47,454 bases of DNA, taken from a virus. Positions within the stretch are counted from its first letter, which is position 1. Each line of letters starts with the position of its first letter. Below are positions 12,815-43,294 of this stretch, one piece after another. A program made the translations under genes and the position numbers. The stretch lies in IMG/VR virus record IMGVR_UViG_3300025010_000095, positions 1 to 47,454 of that record. One strand, given 5' to 3'. Under the pieces are notes generated by a model. That model was not told where the DNA came from. It saw only the letters and a list, made by a program, of their open reading frames with translations, and did no database searches.

Positions 12815-12943
12815 ATGCTCGAAATTATCAGAGAGGGATTATTCTGCCCTCAACATGGAATTTTAACTAATCTTCCAAAGATATTGCCTTTTGTTTCTGC
12901 GACCTTAGTGTATGTTGTGTATTACTTTAAGCGGGGTGCCTGA
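12815..12943 (+). CDS. Possible 42-residue single-span membrane protein
   Basis: ATG 12815 follows AGGGGG at an 8-nt spacing. Residues about 20-38 form a hydrophobic segment (ILPFVSATLVYVVYYF) with a basic end KRGA. Function unknown. Confidence 0.45.
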   Translation: MLEIIREGLFCPQHGILTNLPKILPFVSATLVYVVYYFKRGA

Positions 12944-12974
12944 TGCTCCACATCCGACAGGAGGAAGCATACTG

Positions 12975-13166
12975 ATGGGTTGCTTACATTGGGCTGTATA
13001 TCCCGCTCCACTAAAGCACCGTACACATAGCTGTTGTGACTGTGTGCATGGTTCTTTAGTATGGGATAGGCCATTTGAAGAAAAGTTCAGGAATGGTATA
13101 TGTTCACACTGTCATTCAAAGTCGGAGAACCCAATAAAGGGATGTTTCTTTGAGCCAAAGGAGTAA
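12975..13166 (+). CDS. Small Cys-rich (zinc-binding) protein
   Basis: 63 residues from ATG 12975, preceded by AGGAGG. Cys pairs SCCDC and ICSHC plus His residues, then an ending GCFFEPKE. It resembles the next gene in layout (Cys-rich, WC/GC-aromatic ending near the C terminus), so the two may be diverged duplicates. Confidence 0.6.
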   Translation: MGCLHWAVYPAPLKHRTHSCCDCVHGSLVWDRPFEEKFRNGICSHCHSKSENPIKGCFFEPKE

Positions 13167-13173
13167 ACATATT

Positions 13174-13368
13174 ATGGCATGTGTAGATTATGGTAAACCA
13201 GGACATACAGAGCATAGTTGTGCTTACTGTGTTAATGGGTACATTATGGGTGGCACACTAGCCTGTCAATCCTGTGCTGATTGGAACACAAAACATCCAC
13301 AAAATCTAAAGTGGTGTCAATTTGAGACGTCAGATGCTTTGCATCCGACTAGACGAACAGATACTTAG
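13174..13368 (+). CDS. Small Cys-rich (zinc-binding) protein, possible paralogue
   Basis: 64 residues from ATG 13174 behind AAAGGAG. Contains CAYC and CQSC pairs and a late WCQFET, similar to GCFFEP in the preceding gene. Its last residues are encoded by a copy of the 21-nt hairpin repeat (13329-13349), implying the repeat invaded or extended the C terminus. Confidence 0.6.
   Translation: MACVDYGKPGHTEHSCAYCVNGYIMGGTLACQSCADWNTKHPQNLKWCQFETSDALHPTRRTDT
13329..13349. repeat. 21-nt hairpin repeat, copy C (inverted)
   Basis: Arms GTCAGATGC and GCATCCGAC around TTT: the same element as copies A, B and D in reverse orientation. It lies inside the coding end of a Cys-rich protein. Confidence 0.65.
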
Positions 13369-13614: not shown

Positions 13615-13755
13615 TTGTTGTGTAAGCCAAACACAATTTGTTCCTGTCTCGTACCTTGCAGTCGCTGTAAGTGTATAATTGAGACAGACGAGAAGGGAAG
13701 AATTATTCCGCAGAAGAAGATCAAATTTAAAGCACCAATCAACATCACTATTTAG
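13615..13755 (+). CDS. 46-residue Cys-rich protein
   Basis: TTG start at 13615 or 13618 behind AAAGGAGG. Seven Cys in the first 22 residues (LCKPNTICSCLVPCSRCKC), then a basic tail KKIKFKAP. Probably a compact zinc-binding peptide. Its TAG stop is supplied by palindrome copy 5. Confidence 0.55.
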   Translation: MLCKPNTICSCLVPCSRCKCIIETDEKGRIIPQKKIKFKAPINITI

Positions 13756-13764
13756 AAATCTAAA
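13751..13764. repeat. Palindrome copy 5 (TTTAG-4-CTAAA family)
   Basis: TTTAG / CTAAA around AAAT. The TAG stop of the preceding gene is inside the left arm, and the ribosome site of the radical SAM gene begins five bases after the right arm. Confidence 0.8.
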
Positions 13765-13778
13765 CACTAGGAGGCCGC

Positions 13779-14753
13779 ATGGCAGTAGTATTAAATTTAG
13801 AAGTGCCAACAGGTAATATACTTGTGGTACAAACTCAACAAGGAATGCTTGAGTGTCTTTCTCTTTCAGATTATGGCGCTGATGTTAATCTAAATCAGGA
13901 TAAACCTGTTCAAGATGCAACATCGCTACTACCTTTATCTGAAAAATGGGTTATCACAATTTCAACTCAATACGGTTGTTCTATGGGGTGTACTTTTTGC
14001 GATGTTCCAAAAGTAGGGCCAGGTAAAAACGCTGACTGCGCCGATCTACTGAGACAAGTTTATGCAGGTCTTGCACTACATCCTGAGATAGCTGCTACTA
14101 AGCGCCTTAATGTGCATTTTGCACGTATGGGGGAGCCTACTTGGAATCCTGCGGTTCTTGAGTGTACGAGAAAGCTCAAGAGGGAAGTGCGGCCCTATAT
14201 TGGGCGTTCTTTAGTACATCCAGTAGTTTCTACCATGATGCCTAGACGCAATTCTAATCTAGCACACTTTCTTGCTGAGTGGATGGAAATCAAAAACTAC
14301 GATTATCGTGGGGATGCTGGACTACAACTCTCCATCAATTCTACCAGTGAGAGTGAACGTGAAGGAATGTTTTCTGGGAATGCACACACGCTAGAGGATA
14401 TCTCTGTCCTTGCAGCAAACTTGGATTTTCCCAAAGGACGTAAAATCACATTAAACTTTGCTGTTGCTGGCTATGAGATTGATGCTCAAAAACTCCGTAA
14501 ACTGTTTGACCCTCGTAAGTTTATATGTAAGCTAACACCTATGCACAAAACAGCAGTTGCAATAGAAAATGGTATAGAAACAATAGGTGACTATACTACA
14601 CCATACCCATACAAGCACCACGCAAAAGCATTACAAGAAGTAGGCTTTGATGTCTTAACCTTCATTGCCAGCCATGCTGAAGATGCTGGTAGGATAACTT
14701 GTGGGAATGCAATATTATCAGGAACAATGCCGCACAGTTATATTCAAAGATAG
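13779..14753 (+). CDS. RlmN-like radical SAM enzyme
   Basis: 324 residues. Cys67-SMG-Cys71-TF-Cys74 is the CxxxCxxC site for the 4Fe-4S cluster that cleaves S-adenosylmethionine. ARMGEPTWNP matches the GEP motif, and GRITCGNA near residue 311 sits where RlmN/Cfr carry their catalytic C-terminal Cys (xACGQL). The family methylates C2 of adenosine in rRNA/tRNA, but this protein lacks the usual N-terminal RNA-binding domain and is short, so the substrate may differ. It follows palindrome copy 5 and begins a block with the amidoligase, glutamine amidotransferase and ATP-grasp genes, so a role in that modification pathway is equally plausible. Confidence 0.8.
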   Translation: MAVVLNLEVPTGNILVVQTQQGMLECLSLSDYGADVNLNQDKPVQDATSLLPLSEKWVITISTQYGCSMGCTFCDVPKVGPGKNADCADLLRQVYAGLALHPEIAATKRLNVHFARMGEPTWNPAVLECTRKLKREVRPYIGRSLVHPVVSTMMPRRNSNLAHFLAEWMEIKNYDYRGDAGLQLSINSTSESEREGMFSGNAHTLEDISVLAANLDFPKGRKITLNFAVAGYEIDAQKLRKLFDPRKFICKLTPMHKTAVAIENGIETIGDYTTPYPYKHHAKALQEVGFDVLTFIASHAEDAGRITCGNAILSGTMPHSYIQR

Positions 14754-14762
14754 GGGGTTGCT

Positions 14763-14927
14763 ATGTGTTTTGAGGAAAGAGTATTAAGGGGAGTATCAAT
14801 TCACACATACACACACATGCTTACCAGAGACTCCCAGGCAGCTTGTCTGCCGGTGAGGCAGAAACAATTACGTGTACCTATGGCCGAGAGAATCAATGCG
14901 AATGTAATTAAACTTAAGCGTCACTAG
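14763..14927 (+). CDS. Small basic protein between radical SAM and amidoligase
   Basis: 54 residues from ATG 14763 (AGGGGG site, 5-nt spacing). Strongly basic (VRQKQLRV, NVIKLKRH) with two Cys. If the cassette modifies a peptide, this is one of two short candidates (with 17582-17725) for the substrate, but there is no direct sign of a leader/core organisation. Confidence 0.5.
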   Translation: MCFEERVLRGVSIHTYTHMLTRDSQAACLPVRQKQLRVPMAERINANVIKLKRH

Positions 14928-14997
14928 GCGTTTCCGACTGAAAGGAGAAGCCTGGACGTTTACTACGAGTAATAACAAATGACGAGGAGGAAATGGC

Positions 14998-16377
14998 ATG
15001 CTGTGTCAATTTTGTGGTCGTAATGAAGGTAAAATCATAGAGCATCTTCCGAAGAATCAGAAAGCCTGTATCTGTTCTGTCTGTATCAACAATGCTTTTA
15101 TCTGTGGTAGTTGTAAAACCGTAGGAATTAATGGTATTTACCATGCTCAAGTGGGAAATATGTACTGTGCTTCCTGTGCTACTGGAATCTGTCATTATTG
15201 TGGCGCGGGTGGAGTAGAACTAAAAGACAATGCTTGTCCGTCATGTCTTATAACACTCAAGCCCTGTAATTCTTGTGGTAAACTACACAAGACGTTAGAG
15301 AAAACTCCCATTGGGGATGTTTGTATGGCATGCGTTAAGCAAAATGAGTTCTATTTCTGTTCTCATTGTGAGGCGTGGCATACAAGGAAGAACTACCTAA
15401 CAACCAAGAGTGCCTGTAAGACCTGCGCTGCTGATATGAAACGGTGTTATCATTGTGGTAACTTGGTTTTTACTAGTACGTTGCAGGAGATTTATCCCGG
15501 CAAGTTTATTTGCAAAAGACATCTAACTACTGGATATTGCGACTGTTGTGGAGAATCTGAGGCGCTAGTCAATTATACGTTTCCCTCACATTCTCAAGCA
15601 GCAGACGCTCATATTCATCTGTGTGGTACGTGTCTGTTTGAAGAAAAGTTTGGTACAATAAAACGCTATCACTACAAGCCTGAAGGCAAGTTCAAACCGT
15701 CTTTCGTTGAAGGACAGACTTATTTCGGCGTGGAGAATGAAGTTAATTTTGAAGAAGGAACAATAGCAAAACTCCGTGTCTGTAAGGAATTGCAGAAACA
15801 AGACCCGGAAGAAGATTATTATTATATGAAGAAGGATGCTTCCGTTCACCACGGCTTTGAGATTGTTACACACCCATTTACGTTTGAGTATTTCAAAGAA
15901 AGTTTCCCGCTCAATAACATATTCAATGTATCAGAAAAGTATGTGTATTCTGATGAATGTGGTATGCACGTACACATAAGCAAAGATGCCTTCAGCAACG
16001 CACAACTGTTCAAGTTCATGCAGTTTCTTGAACAAAACCAGGACTTTGCAACAGTCATAGCGGAGCGGCATCCCAACGATTATTGTTCTGCTGTAAAGAA
16101 AGATGGGATGATTCTTAAAGCAATAGAGAAATCAGGTGGAGACAGGGGGCAGGTAAATCTACAGCCGGAGCATACTGTGGAAGTCCGTATGTTTCAAGGA
16201 GCAATAACGGCTGCTCAATTCTCCAAGAACGTGGAGTTTGTTCATGCTCTGTATAAGTTCTGCAAAGTAAGTTCCATTACTAACCTGACAGTGCCGAAGT
16301 TTGTGGAGTTTGTGCAGAAAGAACCAGTGTATTACAACAATCTTATCACGTTCTTGAAACAGAAAAACTATATTTAG
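14998..16377 (+). CDS. Zinc-ribbon array fused to amidoligase domain
   Basis: 459 residues. Residues 1-225 hold about 30 Cys in CxxC pairs plus His, a long array of small zinc ribbons. Residues about 240-430 match the glutamine-synthetase-like amidoligase family (PF12224 type): FGVENEV (Glu246, Glu248), CGMHVHIS (His324, His326), then Arg383, VNLQPEHTVEVRMFQG (Asn387, Glu395, Arg397), the expected metal/ATP-binding and catalytic positions. Such enzymes join an amine to a carboxylate using ATP. With the GATase II and ATP-grasp genes next door it likely makes a gamma- or side-chain amide on a peptide, cell-wall or small-molecule substrate in the cytoplasm. The stop lies in palindrome copy 6. 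Confidence 0.85.
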   Translation: MLCQFCGRNEGKIIEHLPKNQKACICSVCINNAFICGSCKTVGINGIYHAQVGNMYCASCATGICHYCGAGGVELKDNACPSCLITLKPCNSCGKLHKTLEKTPIGDVCMACVKQNEFYFCSHCEAWHTRKNYLTTKSACKTCAADMKRCYHCGNLVFTSTLQEIYPGKFICKRHLTTGYCDCCGESEALVNYTFPSHSQAADAHIHLCGTCLFEEKFGTIKRYHYKPEGKFKPSFVEGQTYFGVENEVNFEEGTIAKLRVCKELQKQDPEEDYYYMKKDASVHHGFEIVTHPFTFEYFKESFPLNNIFNVSEKYVYSDECGMHVHISKDAFSNAQLFKFMQFLEQNQDFATVIAERHPNDYCSAVKKDGMILKAIEKSGGDRGQVNLQPEHTVEVRMFQGAITAAQFSKNVEFVHALYKFCKVSSITNLTVPKFVEFVQKEPVYYNNLITFLKQKNYI

Positions 16378-16386
16378 ATTTCTAAA
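16373..16386. repeat. Palindrome copy 6 (TTTAG-4-CTAAA family)
   Basis: TTTAG / CTAAA around ATTT. Supplies the TAG stop of the amidoligase gene and sits 25 bases before the glutamine amidotransferase start. Confidence 0.8.
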
Positions 16387-16410
16387 CAACAAACGATGAG
16401 GAGGTAGTAG

Positions 16411-17562
16411 ATGTGCGTAGCAATAGCAAAACCAGTAGGAAAAGTTATAGATAAAGAAACATTACAACAGTGTTTTACACAAAATCCAGACGGATGTGGG
16501 TTTGCTTACATCAATAGTGCCGGTGAACTACGCATACATAAGAGCATGGAGTTCGATGCTTTCTATGCAGAGTTCGAGCCAGTGCAGCTTGAGCATCCTG
16601 ACAGTCCTATGCTGATTCACTTCCGCATCAAGACGCATGGAACCAAGGACTTGTTCAACTGTCACCCATTTAAAGTGGATGAGAACATTGCTTTCATTCA
16701 TAACGGTGTTATATCAAAGATAGATGATTGTCCTGACAAGATCAAGTCAGATACACAGATGTTCAACGAACTGGTGTTGCAGAAACTACCGGATGGTTGG
16801 ACAGGCAATGAGGCAATCAAGCTGATGATTGAGGAGTACATTGGGTTCTCTAAACTTGCGGTGCTGGATAAGCGAAGCAGAGAAATCACACTCTTTAATG
16901 AAACAAAGGGTAGCTGGAAGGAGGGTATCTGGTACTCAAATCTTCTGTGGGAACCTCGTAAAAGTCATTATGATTCAGGCTATTACAAGACCTACACACA
17001 TACAGATCGCTGTCTTCAATGTGATAATTGGATTCGTAATAATGTGTATGCTAATGTTAATAATGTAAACTTCTGTTCTGCGAACTGTAAGGATATTTAC
17101 AAGAGCAAGTGGGTGAATAGTTATAAGAAACATCCTTGTGATTACTGTGGTAAGGACAATACGCATATTACGTTGTATCGTGATAAGGTAGAGTTCCATT
17201 ATTGTTCACAGTATTGTAAGGAGAAACACTTGGAGGCAGATGCTAACTCTTTTGAATGTTTGCATTGTGGTAATGATTTGACAGGTCATGTACTTGGTAA
17301 TTTCTGCAATGCTTTCTGTCGTTCACAGTACGATACAAAGCAGATAGAGTACAAGCCTACGCTTCTGACAGTGGAGTGTAAATGGTGTAATGAGTGGTGT
17401 GCTGAAGTAGAGATGGTGGAGGTAGTGGAAGAACACTATACGCACACAATCTGCATTGATTGCTTGGAGTATGCTGTTGCTCATGATGTTGTCGTGGAGA
17501 CAGAGGAAATTAAATCAACGATTGAATCTGTCAGAGCTAAGATAAATAAACAGGCTTGTTGA
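16411..17562 (+). CDS. Class II glutamine amidotransferase fused to zinc ribbons
   Basis: 383 residues. The N terminus MCVAIAKP exposes Cys2 after Met removal, the nucleophile of class II (Ntn-type) glutamine amidotransferases. HFRIKTHGTKDLFNCHPF and FIHNGVI (about 70-100) match the glutamine-binding Arg-x-x-THG and HNG motifs. Residues about 200-360 add several CxxC/CxxxC zinc motifs (CLQC, FCSANC, CDYCG, CLHCGN, CKWC) like those in the preceding amidoligase. It would release ammonia from glutamine for the amidoligase or ATP-grasp partner. The shared zinc-ribbon extension in both enzymes suggests a common docking partner or physical association. Confidence 0.85.
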   Translation: MCVAIAKPVGKVIDKETLQQCFTQNPDGCGFAYINSAGELRIHKSMEFDAFYAEFEPVQLEHPDSPMLIHFRIKTHGTKDLFNCHPFKVDENIAFIHNGVISKIDDCPDKIKSDTQMFNELVLQKLPDGWTGNEAIKLMIEEYIGFSKLAVLDKRSREITLFNETKGSWKEGIWYSNLLWEPRKSHYDSGYYKTYTHTDRCLQCDNWIRNNVYANVNNVNFCSANCKDIYKSKWVNSYKKHPCDYCGKDNTHITLYRDKVEFHYCSQYCKEKHLEADANSFECLHCGNDLTGHVLGNFCNAFCRSQYDTKQIEYKPTLLTVECKWCNEWCAEVEMVEVVEEHYTHTICIDCLEYAVAHDVVVETEEIKSTIESVRAKINKQAC

Positions 17563-17581
17563 GTCCGGTACAGGAGGTGGT

Positions 17582-17725
17582 ATGAAAGTTGAGTTGAGCG
17601 AAGCCCAAGCGGATTTTCTAAGAGATGTTCTCCTACCGCTGTGGTGGAAAGCACCGACAGATAGTGTGGAAGAGATTATTCTGGATGATATTCTTGAACA
17701 ACTGAGAGGAGAATTGACCGAATGA
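17582..17725 (+). CDS. 47-residue acidic protein in the amidoligase cassette
   Basis: ATG 17582 behind CAGGAGGTGG; its stop overlaps the ATP-grasp start (ATGA), so the pair is translationally coupled. Sequence is acidic and helical (SVEEIILDDILEQLRGELTE) with PLWWK in the middle. It could be a carrier, a regulatory subunit or the substrate of the neighbouring ligases; nothing in it decides this. Confidence 0.6.
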   Translation: MKVELSEAQADFLRDVLLPLWWKAPTDSVEEIILDDILEQLRGELTE

Positions 17726-18558
17726 AAATCCGATTATGGCCGTATAAATTTCACAGTGAAGGTGCGAAGAATCTCCAACTTGCTCTGCAAGGTGTAGGGG
17801 TGGACTGCTTACGTGTCCGTACAGATGGTAGATATAAACCAAGAGCAGATCATCTGATAATTAACTGGGGCAGCAGTACTGGTTGGCCTTGGAGATTCCC
17901 TGATTGTGGTGAACTGGGACTTAATGAACCCTGTTCAGTAAGGACGGCAGCAAATAAGCTGGAAACGTTTAGGGCCTCTCTTATCGAGGGCGGGGGTGCT
18001 ACTATGTTATCTGCCGAGGGAGATTTATTTAATGTCCCTGCCTGGACAGTTGACAAGCGTATGGCTACCCATTGGGTTGCTACTGGAAAAAAAGTTTACT
18101 GTAGAAAACAGTTGACAGGACACTCTGGTTCTGGTATAGTTGTTGCCTCCTCTATCGAGGAGCTGGTAGACGCACCTCTCTACACCGTAGGAATAGAAGT
18201 GAAAGGCGAATATAGGGTTCACGTATTTCGTAATCCCCAAGGTGATTACAAAGTGGTGGATGTTCAGAAGAAACGAAGGAGGGATGAAGCACTTGAGAAC
18301 GAGAGTCTTAACATGGATGTTCGCAATCTTGCGGGTGGTTGGGTCTTTGCACGCAATCAAGTTGCGTTGGGTGAACCTGCTCTTGAGCAAGCAAGGGCGG
18401 CTGTCGAGGCGCTTGGTCTGGACTTCGGAGCAGTTGATCTTGTCCTTGAGAAAAGAACCGAACGGCCAGTGGTGCTGGAAGTAAATAGCGCCCCTGGAAT
18501 ATCCAGCCCAACAACTCTTGCTGCATACGTGGAGGCAATTAAATGTTACTTAATATAA
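17722..18558 (+). CDS. ATP-grasp ligase
   Basis: 278 residues. Central VYCRKQLTGHSGSGIVVASS (about 115-134) is the Lys- and Gly-rich ATP-binding part. EVKGEYRVHVF (about 155-165) and FGAVDLVLEKRTERPVVLEVNSAPG (about 232-256) carry the acidic and Asn metal ligands (VDLV... LEVNSAPG) typical of the fold, closest in style to RimK/D-Ala-ligase-like carboxylate-amine ligases. It would form an acyl-phosphate and then an amide or peptide bond. The N terminus (about 1-95) is a substrate domain with INWGSST. It belongs to the same run as the amidoligase and GATase II genes. Confidence 0.85.
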   Translation: MKIRLWPYKFHSEGAKNLQLALQGVGVDCLRVRTDGRYKPRADHLIINWGSSTGWPWRFPDCGELGLNEPCSVRTAANKLETFRASLIEGGGATMLSAEGDLFNVPAWTVDKRMATHWVATGKKVYCRKQLTGHSGSGIVVASSIEELVDAPLYTVGIEVKGEYRVHVFRNPQGDYKVVDVQKKRRRDEALENESLNMDVRNLAGGWVFARNQVALGEPALEQARAAVEALGLDFGAVDLVLEKRTERPVVLEVNSAPGISSPTTLAAYVEAIKCYLI

Positions 18559-18749
18559 AGGGCAGAATAAAAAAGTATGATTCTGAGTATGCTCATTTAT
18601 CTTTCTATGATGATAGATTTGGATGGGATGGTTGTAAGTATTTGACAAGTAAACACTTTCCAGATGAAGTTTGGGCAAAGATACAGGCTGGTAAAATATT
18701 TATAGCTGAACAGACCGTTCTGTTTGGATTTAGGGAGGAACAATGCTAA
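18543..18749 (+). CDS. 68-residue protein after the ATP-grasp gene
   Basis: ATG 18543 lies within the end of the ATP-grasp gene (16-nt overlap) and the stop overlaps the next start, so it is part of the same translational chain. Beta-rich (HLSFYDDRFGWDG) with one late Cys. Not recognised. Confidence 0.6.
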   Translation: MLLNIKGRIKKYDSEYAHLSFYDDRFGWDGCKYLTSKHFPDEVWAKIQAGKIFIAEQTVLFGFREEQC

Positions 18750-22594: not shown

Positions 22595-23773
22595 ACGTCA
22601 GTAATATCGTTTGATTGGGAGGTCACGAAGCTGCCCAACTCATTCCCCTGGTGCAGCAATGCTTACGCAGTATGTCTTGGAATTGCGAGGGAAGATGGGA
22701 CAACTAGGACTTGGTTGCTGAATCATCCAGAATGTAAGCAGTCTCATGCACAAAGTATCTCGGAGATAAAGTATGAACTTGATTGTGCTACTCGTATTGT
22801 TGCTCATAATATTAAATTCGATCTTCTTTGGCTACTGCATTATGGTATTAATATCTCTAGATACAAAGTCTTTTGCACACAAGTTGCGGAATATCTCTTA
22901 CGAGGACAACAAGGGGGAAGGGGGGAATTAACTCTTGAACAACTCAGTAAAGATTATGGTATCTCAGACAAGATAGATAAAGTCAAAGTATTTTGGGAGA
23001 GTGGTTATGAAACTGATGAAATCCCTGCGGATATTCTTCTGCCTTATTGTGAACAGGATTGTATTAACGCTCTTGTATTATATCAGCAGCAATGCAACAA
23101 GCTTGTCTCGCAGAACTTGGTGGCACTTTCAACACTACAGTTCGAATTATGCAAAGTACTTGCAACAATTGAATACAATGGAATGAAGGTTGATAGAACT
23201 CTAGCGGAAAGCTATGGAGAAGAGTATGGGCGAAAACTTAGTAATATCGACAGAGAAATACACGAGCTGCTCGGAACTGAAATCGGAATTGATACGAATA
23301 GCCTTAACCTTAACAGCAAAGACCAGCTCTCGGCAATCCTATATGGTGGATATATACGAGAGGAAGGACAAGAACTGGTTGAGAAACCACGTAAGGATGG
23401 TTCTATCCGTTCCTACTTTCGGAAGTGTGTATCTAATGTGCGAATCGAAGGATTGGGCTTTCGGCCATCTGCTGAAACTTCCAAAGAAGGTGTGTACTCC
23501 ACAGACGCGGAAGCCCTTAAAAGCCTTAAATGTACGACCCCTGCTCAGAAGCGCATCTTAGAACTGTTCCAAGAGAAAGCTAAACTATCCAAGTTGAAGT
23601 CAACTTACTTCGATGGGATAGTAGAAAGGCTATGTCCAGATGATACTGTTCATCCCTCCATGAATAATTGCATAACGAGAACAGGTAGGTTGAGTAGTTC
23701 CAACCCCAATGGAACTAATATGCCTAGAGGGAATACAGGGCCGGTCAAAAGAATATTTATTAGCAGATACTAG
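22595..23773 (+). CDS. DNA polymerase I family, N-terminal half (exonuclease plus thumb)
   Basis: 392 residues if it starts at ACG 22595, six bases after GGGAGG. The frame has no ATG, GTG or TTG before the ExoI motif ISFDWEVTKLP, so a start at TTG 22715 would delete it. ExoII is IVAHNIKFDLLWL and ExoIII is YCEQDCINALVLY, the proofreading 3'-5' exonuclease. The thumb follows up to ITRTGRLSSSNPNGTNMPRG and GPVKRIFISRY, where the frame stops just before palm motif A. The rest is encoded from 24003 after an inserted small gene. The two halves presumably assemble into one polymerase. Confidence 0.85.
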   Translation, partial: TSVISFDWEVTKLPNSFPWCSNAYAVCLGIAREDGTTRTWLLNHPECKQSHAQSISEIKYELDCATRIVAHNIKFDLLWLLHYGINISRYKVFCTQVAEYLLRGQQGGRGELTLEQLSKDYGISDKIDKVKVFWESGYETDEIPADILLPYCEQDCINALVLYQQQCNKLVSQNLVALSTLQFELCKVLATIEYNGMKVDRTLAESYGEEYGRKLSNIDREIHELLGTEIGIDTNSLNLNSKDQLSAILYGGYIREEGQELVEKPRKDGSIRSYFRKCVSNVRIEGLGFRPSAETSKEGVYSTDAEALKSLKCTTPAQKRILELFQEKAKLSKLKSTYFDGIVERLCPDDTVHPSMNNCITRTGRLSSSNPNGTNMPRGNTGPVKRIFISRY

Positions 23774-24002: not shown

Positions 24003-25505
24003 ATGCCGATAGTATCTTGCGATGCTTCTCAGCTCGAGATACGTGTAGCGGCTCTCCTCTCACAAGATGAAGCTATGCTGCAAGAAATTTGGAATGGAGT
24101 AGATGCACATGCAATGAACTGTACTGAGGTTATGGAACTTCCTCTGACTGATGATAACAGGACAGCAGCGAAAGTAACTTCGTTCAGAGCCTTGTATGGT
24201 GGGACTCCCTATGCTTTCTACATGGACAGTAAGATGCCTAACTTCTCACTCAAGAAGTGGGAAAAGATTATGGATAATTATTATGCTAAGTACAAAGGGT
24301 TAGGGAAATGGCAGAAAAATAACTATAAGGAGGTGCAGAGGTCAGGTGAATTAAAAAGTCCAGTCACAGGGCGAATATGGCGCTTTAAACAGTATAAAAC
24401 GAGAGATGGAATGCAGTACAAATGGGCTGAGGTTTGTAATTATCCCGTTAGTAATAGCGGCCTTGTGTGGTAACACACATTGAATAATCTCTTTAATTCA
24501 GGGGAAGTCCTAATAGGATAATCCTGAGCCAAGCTAATTTTCATTGACAAGCGCGTGTCTTTCATGTTATAATATTAGTTAGGAGGTAGCTATGAATTAC
24601 TTGCGCATGTCTAAGGCAGAGGAAGATGCACTCATTGTAGAATTTAATGGTAATACCGGCACGCGTGCTCTGTGCAAGAAGTATAAACGTAGTCTCGATA
24701 TTATCCGGAGAATCTGGCTCACTAAATACACAGAAGAGGATATAAAACTGCGTGGTAGTAGGTTATGTGCATATCATAAAGTCGGTAGTAAGAATCCTAT
24801 GTACGGTAAACGCGGAGCAGAGCATCCAAATGCTATAGAAACGAGCTATTGCAATGGTTATATTCATGTTTTTGCTCCGCACTGGTACACAGGTGCTATT
24901 GATGGTGGCCGCGTATATGAACATATACTTGTTTATTGCGCAGTTAATTCTCTAACTGAGTTACCACCTAGGCATGTTGTTCACCATAAAGATGGTAATA
25001 AAATAAACAACTGTCCTACTAATCTACAGTTAATGACTATAAGTGAGCACATGAAATTGCATAATCTGCTTAGAAGATTAGAAGGTGCAACGACTATCTC
25101 GCAAGAGAGTACACCTCAAGAGAGTGTGGAAATAGGAGACACCCCACTTGTGGGTGATGATATAGTCTGGCCTCTATGGTAACATAGAGAGAGTCTACGG
25201 AATCGGTAGATTCGTAACACAAGCGTCAGGGAACCTCATTTGACTTTATTGCATTGTGGATGGCTCTTTGTCAACAAGATTTCCTCAAGTATCCAGATAT
25301 AAAATTTATAATAATGGTTCACGATGAACTTGTTTTCGATTGTCCTGAAAAATATGTTGACTTTGTAGCAGAAACATTATATACTAGAGTAGTAGGGTTG
25401 AGTACATCTATTGAACAGTTCTTTGGTTATCCCTGTAACGTACCGTTTAGTGGTGAAGTGAAGGTCGGTGAGTCTTGGGGAAAACTAGAGAAATATAAAC
25501 TGTGA
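24003..25505 (+). CDS. DNA polymerase I family, C-terminal half (palm and fingers), interrupted by a group I intron
   Basis: Exon 1 (24003-24448) holds motif A SCDASQLEIRVAALLS and motif B NRTAAKVTSFRALYGG. Exon 2 (25226-25505) holds motif C IIMVHDELVFDCP and ends EKYKL. Joining at these positions restores NYPVQGTSFDFIALW, the expected PolA sequence, and 446 plus 280 nt gives an in-frame 242 codons. Without splicing, translation would stop at 24473, before motif C, and no active polymerase could form. The start ATG has only a weak ribosome site and probably depends on coupling with the 72-residue gene. Confidence 0.85.
24544..24573 (+). promoter_or_regulatory. Promoter inside the group I intron
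   Basis: TTGACA (24544-24549), 18-nt spacer, TATAAT (24568-24573), followed by TTAGGAGG before the HNH start. It gives the intron endonuclease its own expression, independent of polymerase transcription. Confidence 0.7.
24592..25182 (+). CDS. Intron-encoded HNH homing endonuclease
   Basis: 196 residues. The N terminus (about 1-45) is an HTH-like segment (NTGTRALCKKYKRSLDIIRRIW), then HNH_3-type sequence: RVYEHILVYCAVNS, HVVHHKDGNKINN and LQLMTISEHMKLH (His-His, Asn, His). The last 30 residues are dictated by the intron core and are unlikely to be conserved as protein. It would cut intronless polymerase genes to spread the intron. Confidence 0.85.
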   Translation: MNYLRMSKAEEDALIVEFNGNTGTRALCKKYKRSLDIIRRIWLTKYTEEDIKLRGSRLCAYHKVGSKNPMYGKRGAEHPNAIETSYCNGYIHVFAPHWYTGAIDGGRVYEHILVYCAVNSLTELPPRHVVHHKDGNKINNCPTNLQLMTISEHMKLHNLLRRLEGATTISQESTPQESVEIGDTPLVGDDIVWPLW

Positions 25506-28157: not shown

Positions 28158-28357
28158 TGTGCAAATCAACTACAGATACCTCTACATTTAATTGTAAGTG
28201 TCTTGAGGATGAATTAAACATGATTTCTATACCAGTTAGTGACTATGAATTTCTTCAAGCGTCCACTAAAACACTTCATTGGCTTATTGCTTGTGGTGTG
28301 GATAATTGGGAAGGTTATCAAAACGCTATGTTGTCTATAGGTGGGGAGGCAGCATAG
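28157..28357 (+). CDS. 66-residue protein
   Basis: ATG overlaps the nuclease stop. Early Cys (CKST, FNCKCL), then a helical SDYEFLQASTKTLHWLIACGV. Its 3' end contains the GGGGAGG that serves the next gene. Unknown. Confidence 0.55.
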   Translation: MCKSTTDTSTFNCKCLEDELNMISIPVSDYEFLQASTKTLHWLIACGVDNWEGYQNAMLSIGGEAA

Positions 28358-28770
28358 AAAAAGCTGATTTTTATAAAGTCCTCTCTGCGATACGTAGATG
28401 TTTCTCTCGCAGTAAAACTCACAGAGAAGTATTGAATATGGCGAAGACAGATGAACTAGGCCCAAAGGGAGGTAAACGATATAGATGTTGTATCTGTGGA
28501 GAATCCTTCGGAATAAAGGAAGTACACGTTGACCATATAGATTGTGTTATTCCTTTAGATAAGACAGCAGAAAGTATGACGTGGGATGAAATTATCAAAC
28601 GCATCTTCTGTGACATTACTAACTTACAGACGATTTGTATTAGGTGCCATTCTACGAAAAGTAAACTAGAAGGTAAGGGGAGGAGAAACATACGTACATC
28701 TGTACAAAATGTAAAGAAAGTAAAACCGAAGAAGAAATGTCTAAAGACAGAACTAGAAGAACTGGTTTAA
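28354..28770 (+). CDS. HNH endonuclease with probable ATA start
   Basis: About 138 residues: EKADFYKVLSAIRRCFSRS, then GPKGGKRYRCCICGESF, VHVDHIDCVIPL and LQTICIRCHSTKSK, a complete phage HNH domain (CxxC, DH, CxxCH). No ATG/GTG/TTG lies near the conserved N terminus except 28306, far inside the previous gene and without a ribosome site. ATA at 28354 follows GGGGAGG by four bases and overlaps the previous stop. An internal ATG at 28438 would remove the conserved IRRxFxRS helix. The 3' end overlaps the endonuclease VII gene by 79 nt. Confidence 0.65.
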   Translation: MEKADFYKVLSAIRRCFSRSKTHREVLNMAKTDELGPKGGKRYRCCICGESFGIKEVHVDHIDCVIPLDKTAESMTWDEIIKRIFCDITNLQTICIRCHSTKSKLEGKGRRNIRTSVQNVKKVKPKKKCLKTELEELV

Positions 28771-29147
28771 GTAGTTGGTGTAAATCTTGTAGAACTGTCT
28801 CAACTAGAGGTTGGACAAATAAAAACACACAAAGACTTAAATCTTATAGAGCACTGAAATATGAGCAGAATTATGATTATATGAAAGCTAGGGACTACTC
28901 ACTAAAACAGCGGTATGGTATTGATCTTAATGGTTATGATCTTTTGCTAAGATCACAAAATTATTGTTGTGCTATTTGCGGAAGAGATGGCCGTGAAATG
29001 ACTTACCTGTTACATGTAGATCATAATCATATTAGTGGGAAAGTTAGAGGGCTGCTATGTGCTCCGTGTAATGTTTTTCTTGGACATCTAAAAGATGATG
29101 CTACTAAAATAGAGAGGGCTATTAAGTACCTAATAGAACAGGAGTAG
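28692..29147 (+). CDS. Endonuclease VII-like recombination nuclease with probable ACG start
   Basis: About 151 residues. The core has CAICGRDG, LLHVDHNHISGKVRGLLCAPCNVFLGHL, the His-Me finger of the T4 endonuclease VII (gp49) family, which resolves branched DNA before packaging. The family N terminus carries a first Cys pair: here YICTKCKESK, then SSWCKSC. That pair lies upstream of ATG 28737 and is reached only from ACG 28692, which follows GGAGGAG by six bases. Starting at 28737 would lose half of a zinc site. Confidence 0.75.
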   Translation, partial: TYICTKCKESKTEEEMSKDRTRRTGLSSWCKSCRTVSTRGWTNKNTQRLKSYRALKYEQNYDYMKARDYSLKQRYGIDLNGYDLLLRSQNYCCAICGRDGREMTYLLHVDHNHISGKVRGLLCAPCNVFLGHLKDDATKIERAIKYLIEQE

Positions 29148-31156: not shown

Positions 31157-31585
31157 ATGAAGATCAGTACGAATTTAAATTCTAAACGAAAACAGAAATC
31201 ATATAAAGACTTTACTCCAGAAGAGCGAGCCAAAGCAATTGAAAAAGTTCGTAAGTATTACTACAATAATAAAGAAAAGTGTGCTGAACGAAGAAAGGAG
31301 TGGTATGAAAGAACCAGAGATGTGAGAAACAATAAACAAAGAGTTAAAAATAATGAACGTAAACAACAAGCCGTAGAATATAAAGGGGGTGTTTGTTTTA
31401 AGTGCGGTTTATCTTATCCTCCCGCTGTATTCGAGTTTCATCATACTGACCCTTCCAATAAGGATAAAGATTTAACTAGATATAAACAATTAAAATGGGA
31501 TAGAATGCAAATAGAATTAGACAAATGTATTTTGCTATGTGCTAACTGTCATAGGCTAACACATCATGGAGGGGAAGATTGGTAA
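31157..31585 (+). CDS. Free-standing HNH endonuclease upstream of RNR
   Basis: 142 residues. Basic helical N terminus (about 1-75; YYYNNKEKCAERRKEWYERT), then CFKCGLSYPPAVFEFHHTD and KCILLCANCHRLTHHG, an HNH zinc finger nuclease. It overlaps the RNR start by 7 nt and probably homes to a gene in this neighbourhood. Confidence 0.8.
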   Translation: MKISTNLNSKRKQKSYKDFTPEERAKAIEKVRKYYYNNKEKCAERRKEWYERTRDVRNNKQRVKNNERKQQAVEYKGGVCFKCGLSYPPAVFEFHHTDPSNKDKDLTRYKQLKWDRMQIELDKCILLCANCHRLTHHGGEDW

Positions 31586-33268: not shown

Positions 33269-33712
33269 ATGTTATCCGAAACAAGCAAAGATATAGTTGG
33301 GCAAGAGGGACGTTATGCTATTACTTTAGATGGACGTGTATACTCCCATTCTAGAGTAGACTATACGGGGAGACTTTTTAAGGGACGCTGGTTAAGACCA
33401 CAGACAGATAAGTATGGCTATTTAAAAGTAAGTTTAAGTAGGGGTTCCCGAGCATTAGGTCAAGATTATAAAATGATACATAGATTAGTTGCTGAGGCGT
33501 TTATTCCAAATCCAGATAATTTACCTTGCATAAATCATAAAGATGGAAACAAGATAAACAATCTTGTAGATAATCTTGAGTGGGTTTCTTGGAAAGATAA
33601 TACAGTACATGCTTGGAAAATGGGATTATGTAAACCTTACGATAGAGCAGGAGATTACAATAGGGAGGGTATTATCGCTTCTAATAAGAGGAGAAGGAAG
33701 CATGGAATTTGA
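33269..33712 (+). CDS. NUMOD4/HNH homing endonuclease downstream of RNR
   Basis: 147 residues from ATG 33269 (AAAGGAG). GRYAITLDGRVYSHSR is a NUMOD4-type DNA-recognition start; IHRLVAEAFIPNP, CINHKDGNKINN and LEWVSWKDNTVHAW are HNH_3 motifs. With 31157-31585 it brackets the intact RNR gene, a typical placement of homing nucleases beside conserved targets. Confidence 0.85.
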   Translation: MLSETSKDIVGQEGRYAITLDGRVYSHSRVDYTGRLFKGRWLRPQTDKYGYLKVSLSRGSRALGQDYKMIHRLVAEAFIPNPDNLPCINHKDGNKINNLVDNLEWVSWKDNTVHAWKMGLCKPYDRAGDYNREGIIASNKRRRKHGI

Positions 33713-41889: not shown

Positions 41890-42882
41890 TTATACTCCTT
41901 CCAGTTTATTCCCACCAACCCAACCTTTAAGTAGTCCCTCGTCAGCAATAAGAGCTGCCATGAGATTATCTATATAGCCCAACTTGGTATATTGATAAGG
42001 CCCACAAGGGCCTATGTTAAGTAAATCTATTGTTGTCTTATCAGGACAAACTACAAGGATAGTATGCAGTCCATCTAGGTTGAAGTTAAGTAAGTACTGG
42101 TGATTGTTAAGGCCGGGAATAAACTCACCAGACTCAACAGAACAAAGAGCAGTCTGTACTAACTCAGATAGAAATATTCTATCTGCTTGATTATACTCAC
42201 CAATGTTAAATGCCACTCTTATCTTGAATGTGTGTCCCACATCCTTTAGCTTCTTAAACTCGTTTATAACAGTAGGTATCTCATCCAAACTAAAGACGGT
42301 AGCTACTATTATTGAAACCTTAAAGCCAAGAGCTTTAATGTTATCTAAGGCTTTAAGTTTGTTTTCATAATCAGGTGTATCTTTTGTATTCAACGAGAAC
42401 ATCCAAGGCAAAACACCTGGAATATCTATTGAAGTATATTTAAGAGTTTCCTTTAGAAACTCCGTATCTTGAAACAGAAGACCGTTGGTTATCAATCCTG
42501 CCGGTACAGCAGATAAAATATCAAAGAACTTGGAGTGGTAGGTAGGTTCCCCGCCTGTAAAAATATATCTATTGATGTTTGTAGGGGCAGAGAAGGCTAG
42601 TCCTCTTATCTCTTCAACACTAAGCTCCGTACCCAAGTCTTTATTGTAGCATGCTTTGCAGGTAGTGTTGCATCTTGTAGTAATAGGGATACTAAGATAG
42701 TTTCCCATAATGTTGTTATAAGACAAACCACTTACCCAATTATAGAAATCCGCGCTACGTTCAATAGGCACCTTCTCTTCAGAACAGCAATGCTTATGTA
42801 GATATACGCCAGTAGAATCTTGTGAGATTCCTGCGGGTATTTTCTTATAACAGGTACTGCATATAGCAAAAGTATTATTCAC
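41890..42882 (-). CDS. Radical SAM enzyme within the virion gene cluster
   Basis: 330 residues from GTG 42882 (GAAAGG site); TTG 42912 is an alternative. N terminus has a small zinc-binding module (CSTC ... HKHCC, about 8-33). The core has Cys71-NTT-Cys75-KA-Cys78, YIFTGGEPT (110-114 region), GLITNGLLF and FSLNTKDTPD, a classic radical SAM barrel. Late Cys residues (VVCPDK, GPCGPY) could bind an auxiliary cluster or take part in catalysis. No family beyond the superfamily is recognised. Placed between an acetyltransferase-like gene and ejection proteins, it may modify a virion protein or make a metabolite late in infection. Confidence 0.8.
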   Translation of the reverse strand: MNNTFAICSTCYKKIPAGISQDSTGVYLHKHCCSEEKVPIERSADFYNWVSGLSYNNIMGNYLSIPITTRCNTTCKACYNKDLGTELSVEEIRGLAFSAPTNINRYIFTGGEPTYHSKFFDILSAVPAGLITNGLLFQDTEFLKETLKYTSIDIPGVLPWMFSLNTKDTPDYENKLKALDNIKALGFKVSIIVATVFSLDEIPTVINEFKKLKDVGHTFKIRVAFNIGEYNQADRIFLSELVQTALCSVESGEFIPGLNNHQYLLNFNLDGLHTILVVCPDKTTIDLLNIGPCGPYQYTKLGYIDNLMAALIADEGLLKGWVGGNKLEGV

Positions 42883-43294
42883 AAGAACCTTTCTGGTTTG
42901 GATAATACACAAGGTCTTGTCCCTTGTGATACCATAGAACTCCTTGACAACCTACAGCCCTACGCCTTATCTCTTTGATAAAATCCATCAGACCTTTACG
43001 ACCAGATTTATTACCATGCTCAACAACCCACATAACAGTACCATCAAATAGATGCTGCGGTTCTATTCCATCTTTCAGCAACTCAATATCTTCAGGCATT
43101 ATCTTAGCGTAACAGAGGAAGTGATTAATCTTCCCGGCTTCGTCTCTTGAAATAATATACTGATTGGCTACTATAGCTAAAAGAATATTTCTCTGGCAAT
43201 CCCCTGTGATAGTTTCATATACACCACCACAGTCTTGAAGGAATGTAGAGATTTCATCTAACAGCTCATTGGCTAATTGAAATGAAGGATACAT
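42875..43294 (-). CDS. GNAT-like protein in the virion gene cluster
   Basis: 139 residues: an N-terminal helix pair, ISRDEAGKINHFLCYAKI (strand), GTVMWVVEHGNKSGRKGLMDFIKEIRRRA (the strand-turn-helix resembling an acetyl-CoA loop) and a final strand GVLWYHKG. Small acetyltransferase-like proteins are frequent in this position of podoviral late clusters. It overlaps both neighbours, so it is coupled to the radical SAM gene. Catalysis is not demonstrated. Confidence 0.55.
   Translation of the reverse strand: MYPSFQLANELLDEISTFLQDCGGVYETITGDCQRNILLAIVANQYIISRDEAGKINHFLCYAKIMPEDIELLKDGIEPQHLFDGTVMWVVEHGNKSGRKGLMDFIKEIRRRAVGCQGVLWYHKGQDLVYYPNQKGSCE

Follow-up and report, generated by a model that had tools for sequence, protein, structure and literature searches.

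The 47,454-base virus contig IMGVR_UViG_3300025010_000095, which was analyzed over its whole length and is called the window here, carries an early module with primase/helicase, DNA polymerase A, and ribonucleotide reductase genes on the + strand and a terminase/portal module on the - strand. This general layout is that of LUZ24-like phages (PMC3890496). In the early module, just upstream of the primase and helicase genes, the genes of an amidoligase (AL), a class II glutamine amidotransferase (GATase), and a RimK-like ATP-grasp ligase (AG) form a real three-gene unit, and upstream of this triad lies the gene of a radical SAM protein with the RlmN fold (rSAM). An earlier note on this DNA had described four enzyme genes in a row on one strand, accompanied by two miniproteins, and all six open reading frames (ORFs) were found at those coordinates on the + strand, each preceded by a purine-rich, Shine-Dalgarno-like stretch:

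13779-14753, + strand: RlmN-fold radical SAM gene (rSAM), independent cargo outside the module
14763-14927, + strand: ORF of 54 amino acids upstream of AL, with a homologous frame in the sister phage L050 from position 732
14998-16377, + strand: AL, with seven tandem zinc ribbons (amino acids 3-212) followed by a domain of the glutamine synthetase (GS) fold (amino acids ~240-459)
16411-17562, + strand: GATase of class II with Cys2 as nucleophile and a C-terminal zinc-ribbon array (amino acids 201-351)
17582-17725, + strand: ORF of 47 amino acids with a 4-base overlap with the start of AG, not a conserved part
17722-18558, + strand: AG, a RimK-like ATP-grasp ligase matching phrog_2599

The amidoligase cassette

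As judged from their conserved residues, the active sites of AL, GATase, and AG appear to be intact. AL matched Amidoligase_2 (PF12224) at 5.4e-9 and, with 36.7 bits versus a curated cut-off of 22, scored above this threshold; its catalytic set (G244, E246, E248, D280, S282, E288, H324, H326, R357, N387, E395, and R397) is kept in the triad relatives, and the motifs GxExE, DxS, E288, HxH, and ExR are invariant. No solved structure was matched by the AL sequence itself, and its relation to such structures was found by fold comparison only: the structure model, which is mostly confident over residues 240 to 459 with a low-confidence loop at 362 to 382, aligned (residues 237 to 459) with plant glutamate-cysteine ligase, YbdK, and glutamine synthetases at a Z score of ~11 over 175 to 214 residues (root mean square deviation [rmsd] of 3.5 to 4.0). 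GATase matched GATase_6 at 1.1e-5, just below the Pfam cut-off, and GlmS at 5e-9 in a profile comparison; its invariant residues are C2, R72, T75-H76-G77, N98-G99, and D114. The match of AG to phrog_2599 reached 4.8e-74, and RimK structures ranked first with its profile (6e-8 to 1.7e-7). Conserved in 81 aligned AG sequences are R128, E163, R165, H167, Q182, K184, D239, E253, and N255, the last three being candidate Mg-binding residues.

Scans with the single AL, GATase, and AG sequences of the window matched only the sister phage IMGVR_UViG_3300025012_000148 (L050), and alignments and profiles were then used. With a profile of the AL subfamily, at least 560 matching stretches were obtained from IMG/VR, and the neighbors were examined in 80 of these loci; another 80 loci were examined from a scan with the AG profile. 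The GATase gene lies directly downstream of AL in 78 of the 80 AL loci, the remaining two being a locus with GATase upstream and one that is only 599 bases long. Among the AG loci, 37/80 hold AL and GATase beside AG, in 36 cases on one strand in the order AL-GATase-AG, and the frames of these triads mostly overlap or abut; 27/80 carry the phiEco32/LUZ24 set with a COOH-NH2 ligase instead. Since AG was found near only 3 of the 80 AL-GATase pairs, yet occurs in two types of cassettes among the AG loci, AL-GATase is the core and AG an add-on that was joined to two different amidoligase cassettes. The genomic context of AL relatives on plasmids was uninformative. The AL/GATase modules thus emerge from the at least 560 matching stretches as widespread uncharacterized metabolic cassettes in phages, and no description of the compact AL-GATase-AG arrangement was found in the literature searched, though it is well populated. 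In locus L118, an amidoligase flanked by two GATases shares its cassette with AG and a COOH-NH2 ligase, which might make it an intermediate form of the two cassette types.

With respect to the two miniproteins, which the earlier note had regarded as coupled to the enzymes and as candidate substrates, the outcome was divided. The 54-amino-acid ORF at 14763 is kept in the sister phage and is possibly a regulator or accessory protein. The ORF at 17582 has no counterpart in L050, where AG starts 32 bases after GATase; its absence there speaks against a candidate substrate and rules out a conserved one.

The radical SAM gene

The annotation of rSAM as RlmN-like was right for the fold but not for the catalytic equipment. 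Matches to Radical_SAM (3.4e-5) and, over part of the model, to RlmN (5.8e-9) were obtained, and no RlmN model scored near its cut-off. The structure model of rSAM (predicted local distance difference test [pLDDT] of 90.7, predicted template modeling score [pTM] of 0.90) aligned with Escherichia coli RlmN (5hr6) at a Z score of 23.7 over 262 residues with an rmsd of 2.8, compared to a Z score of 14.4 for the next family. The alignment begins only at RlmN residue 80, and hence the N-terminal domain of RlmN is missing from rSAM. With RlmN and Cfr it shares the fold, the GEP motif, the CxxxCxxC motif, whose FeS cysteines C67, C71, and C74 are kept in 50/50 rSAM sequences, and a C-terminal Cys-Gly (C308 in ITCGN), which is equivalent to RlmN C355 and kept in 47/50 sequences. 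In contrast to RlmN, the position of Cys118 is occupied by threonine (T60) in 49/50 phage relatives. Going by their titles, the crystal structures of RlmN C118A include RNA-crosslinked forms. In RlmN, a loss of Cys118 should stop the release of the methylated RNA, and because this cysteine is lost, the substrate or the release step of rSAM must differ from that of RlmN, as far as established RlmN chemistry can be transferred. An RlmN with normal A2503 methylation is accordingly unlikely without Cys118. The conservation of an RlmN-fold family that lacks one of the two essential cysteines of RlmN makes rSAM a lead in itself.

Two further observations concern radical SAM proteins. A cellular sister clade of rSAM (SNCGQ; L189-L214) comprises archaea and diverse bacteria, including Thermoplasmata, Krumholzibacteriota, and Bacteroidales, and never has a cysteine at the C118 position; it adjoins a flavin adenine dinucleotide (FAD) pyridine-nucleotide oxidoreductase in 21/26 loci and an isochorismatase-family hydrolase in 13/26. 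The window also harbors a second radical SAM gene (41890-42912, - strand) in the structural module, which matched Radical_SAM at 6.8e-10, has an HMPTM-type N-terminal zinc ribbon (PF23545, 4e-6, just below the cut-off), and found no relative among 50,697 phage records with tblastn.

The adjacency of rSAM, AL, GATase, and AG on one strand had led the earlier note to propose one four-enzyme pathway with the RlmN-like enzyme as a candidate extra step, an explanation that we consider very improbable. The sister phage L050 is ~89% identical to the window across AL and GATase (92% for the AL, 98% for the GATase, and 67% for the AG protein) and keeps the triad, but its sequence jumps from window position 13764 to ~14769, leaving an empty site in place of the whole rSAM gene, of which no copy was found elsewhere in the L050 record. 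The proposed survey for a co-occurrence of the radical SAM gene with the cassette came close to finding the two never together. In 48 other viral contigs with rSAM, neither GATase_6 nor phrog_2599 was detected (0/48), and rSAM was conversely missing from 48 amidoligase-cassette contigs, several of them short (37 with AG, 11 with AL-GATase only); none of the 80 AG loci is flanked by it, either. Two of the 48 rSAM contigs (G007 and G009) have an amidoligase ~3 kb away, which is of a different, unpaired type, comes without GATase or AG, and was ruled out as a link between rSAM and the cassette. No conserved neighbor of rSAM was found in phages except a nicotinate phosphoribosyltransferase in 5/48 loci, and no match was found on plasmids. 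According to these comparisons, the rSAM gene is a passenger that was recently gained or lost and not part of the module. The distinction of core pair, add-on AG, and passenger rSAM defines a minimal set for expression and for an assay of the modified target.

Zinc ribbons and known phage modules

The zinc-ribbon arrays that had been noticed on both AL and GATase are real. The window has seven tandem ribbons on AL and four or five C-terminal ones on GATase; AL contains 13 CxxC pairs versus a mean of 2.2 in shuffled sequences, with 0/5000 shuffles reaching 13, and GATase contains 5 versus 1.3, with 32/5000 shuffles reaching 5. Their description as unusual for either fold did not hold, because at least two CxxC pairs are located N-terminally of the catalytic domain in 63/87 ALs and C-terminally in 69/82 GATases, and cysteine pairs are also present at the C termini of the phiEco32, LUZ24, K4, and Marvin GATases. 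Zinc fusions are therefore ruled out as a special feature of this locus and are usual for an enzyme pair of this kind. Of 36 triad ALs that were aligned, at least 95% retain the last ribbon (C181/C184/C209/C212), the one next to the catalytic domain. The number of AL ribbons varies: 28 of the 37 IMG/VR triads have only 2 CxxC pairs in AL versus 13 in the window, and seven ribbons in a row on AL are at the high end. The largest zinc array of the survey precedes the catalytic domain of an amidoligase ORF in locus L103 (7461-8714) and counts 27 CxxC pairs. Just upstream of the cassette in the window, two small cysteine-rich ORFs (12912-13166 and 13150-13368; e.g., CCDCVHGS..CSHCHSKSENP) resemble rubredoxin-like or stand-alone zinc-ribbon proteins, and the sister phage has an equivalent of the first ORF.

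A docking of the enzymes through the ribbons had also been proposed, and the ribbon numbers of AL and GATase indeed rise together as docking predicts. In 45 dereplicated pairs, with kinship ignored, high numbers on AL coincide with high numbers on GATase (22/32 versus 2/13, Fisher P = 0.002; Spearman 0.32, P = 0.03). This joint rise fits AL-GATase docking but is only suggestive.

The window shares with phiEco32, LUZ24, tf, and PaP3 an Amidoligase_2 protein, a class II GATase with a C-terminal zinc ribbon, one or more small ORFs, a RimK-like AG, and primase/helicase in the same order. The characteristic feature of the phiEco32/LUZ24 type, i.e., amidoligase, GATase II, and RimK-like AG upstream of primase/helicase, is thus present, and the order AL/GATase/AG followed by primase/helicase is matched in phiEco32, LUZ24, and tf. 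Two components of this type are absent. The COOH-NH2 ligase (PF14395) was not found in the window by profile and Pfam searches, the profile matching phiEco32, tf, K4, and KIT05, and the gamma-glutamyl cyclotransferase GGCT (PF06094) had no match in the record, whereas control genomes do match. The module of the window, which would work in the manner of the phiEco32/LUZ24 type, is therefore a compact variant and not a member of this type, and because of these two absences it should yield a less complex product than the phiEco32 module does.

A further difference from the phiEco32/LUZ24 module is that AL and GATase of the window belong to another subfamily, with seven N-terminal ribbons on AL. 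A tblastn search with window AL and GATase found no LUZ24 or phiEco32 record, whereas the search with AG finds phages of the LUZ24/phiEco32 type. The same AL/GATase subfamily, with GATase directly after AL, is present in mycobacteriophage Marvin (gp105-106), the Methylophilales phages MEP401 and MEP402, and the podovirus MW202733. As in the window, the ALs of Marvin and MW202733 have N-terminal CxxC ribbons and the Marvin GATase has a C-terminal cysteine cluster; unlike in the window, the ribbons are fewer and no AG gene was found beside the pair. According to these matches, the window combines an AL-GATase pair of the Marvin/MEP401/MW202733 subfamily with an AG of the phiEco32/LUZ24 subfamily. 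All three subfamilies of the window recur in the 37 IMG/VR triads, one of which is the sister phage, and the gene order agrees in 36; these triads differ by their mostly low number of AL ribbons and by the absence of rSAM near the cassette in all of them.

Proposed function and target

The ammonia-fed amidating or ligating complex that the earlier note had envisaged is the natural reading of a unit of AL, GATase, and AG with apparently intact active sites. According to its family signatures, GATase would split glutamine into glutamate and ammonia, and the GS-fold amidoligase would activate a carboxylate with ATP and join it to ammonia or another amine. The RimK-like AG may extend this carboxylate, or one linked to it, by an amino acid, for which glutamate is the probable candidate by analogy. 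The zinc ribbons at the N terminus of AL and the C terminus of GATase probably keep the two enzymes attached to each other or serve in acceptor binding. The complex would work in the early phase of infection, its target being a glutamate-type carboxylate in the cytosol and most likely that of a cell-wall peptide precursor, and the altered wall might block competing phages or host countermeasures. Overall, we hold with middling confidence that an AL-GATase-AG module, accompanied by the rSAM passenger, carries out an ammonia-fed amide or peptide ligation, most plausibly on a cell-wall peptide precursor.

The wall-precursor target is the published proposal for phiEco32/LUZ24-type modules and is carried over here, by analogy, with moderate confidence. 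In the earlier note a cell-wall precursor was merely one option beside a peptide, tRNA, or ribosomal target, but it is the one that matches the proposal published for such cassettes. The phiEco32/LUZ24 type has been termed a "putative peptidoglycan modification module" (PMC11945000), and for related modules an alteration of peptidoglycan side chains has been proposed that would keep out competing phages or ready the cell for lysis (PMC11945000; PMC10580990; PMC11318856; the latter two papers cite Iyer et al., 2009).

Several points weigh against a wall-precursor modification by the triad. AG is absent beside most AL-GATase pairs, and AL and GATase must therefore be useful alone. The phiEco32 pathway cannot run unchanged in the window because COOH-NH2 ligase and GGCT are missing. 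Altered wall peptides are also not suggested by the probable endolysin, which is a glycosidase of the lysozyme type (PF00959, 4.8e-4, slightly below the cut-off). To our knowledge, the substrate or product is known for none of these phage modules.

RimK adds glutamate residues to ribosomal protein S6, and the triad might, in a comparable way, add glutamates to a host or phage protein, e.g., a ribosomal or RNA polymerase subunit, which are then amidated. The nearest solved relatives of AG are indeed RimK and alpha-L-glutamate ligases, the AG family is named ribosomal protein S6 glutaminyl transferase in PHROGs, and an early gene position suits host takeover. We nevertheless regard a protein target as unlikely, since AG is only distantly similar to RimK (E value of 1e-7 with a 7-sequence profile), the PHROG name is a homology-based label only, and the RimK-like partner is missing from the majority of the AL-GATase pairs. 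A similarly low probability is assigned to a small free metabolite of peptide or amide nature, like glutathione or a peptide made without a nonribosomal peptide synthetase, that serves as a phage signal, antitoxin, or toxin. ATP-grasp and GS-fold ligases are typical of nonribosomal amide metabolites, and GGCT, which handles gamma-glutamyl amides, accompanies the phiEco32 type; for phage Marvin, a secondary-metabolite role has been suggested, as cited in PMC10580990. However, inspection by eye of the recurrent neighbors of the pair in 84 loci revealed no gene for a transporter, a carrier protein, or resistance, and the zinc ribbons, being conserved, point to a macromolecular partner. It is also doubtful, to about the same degree, that a compact and widespread three-enzyme pathway distinct from the phiEco32 type, with ribbon-docked ammonia channeling, performs a host-foreign amide modification on a target other than peptidoglycan.

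Elsewhere in the early module of the window, HNH-like homing endonuclease ORFs were recognized by eye at 24592-25182, 28306-28770, 28737-29147, 31157-31585, and 33269-33712. The DNA polymerase A gene is, likewise by eye, split into ORFs at 23773/24003 and 24473, which suggests intron or intein-like interruptions.

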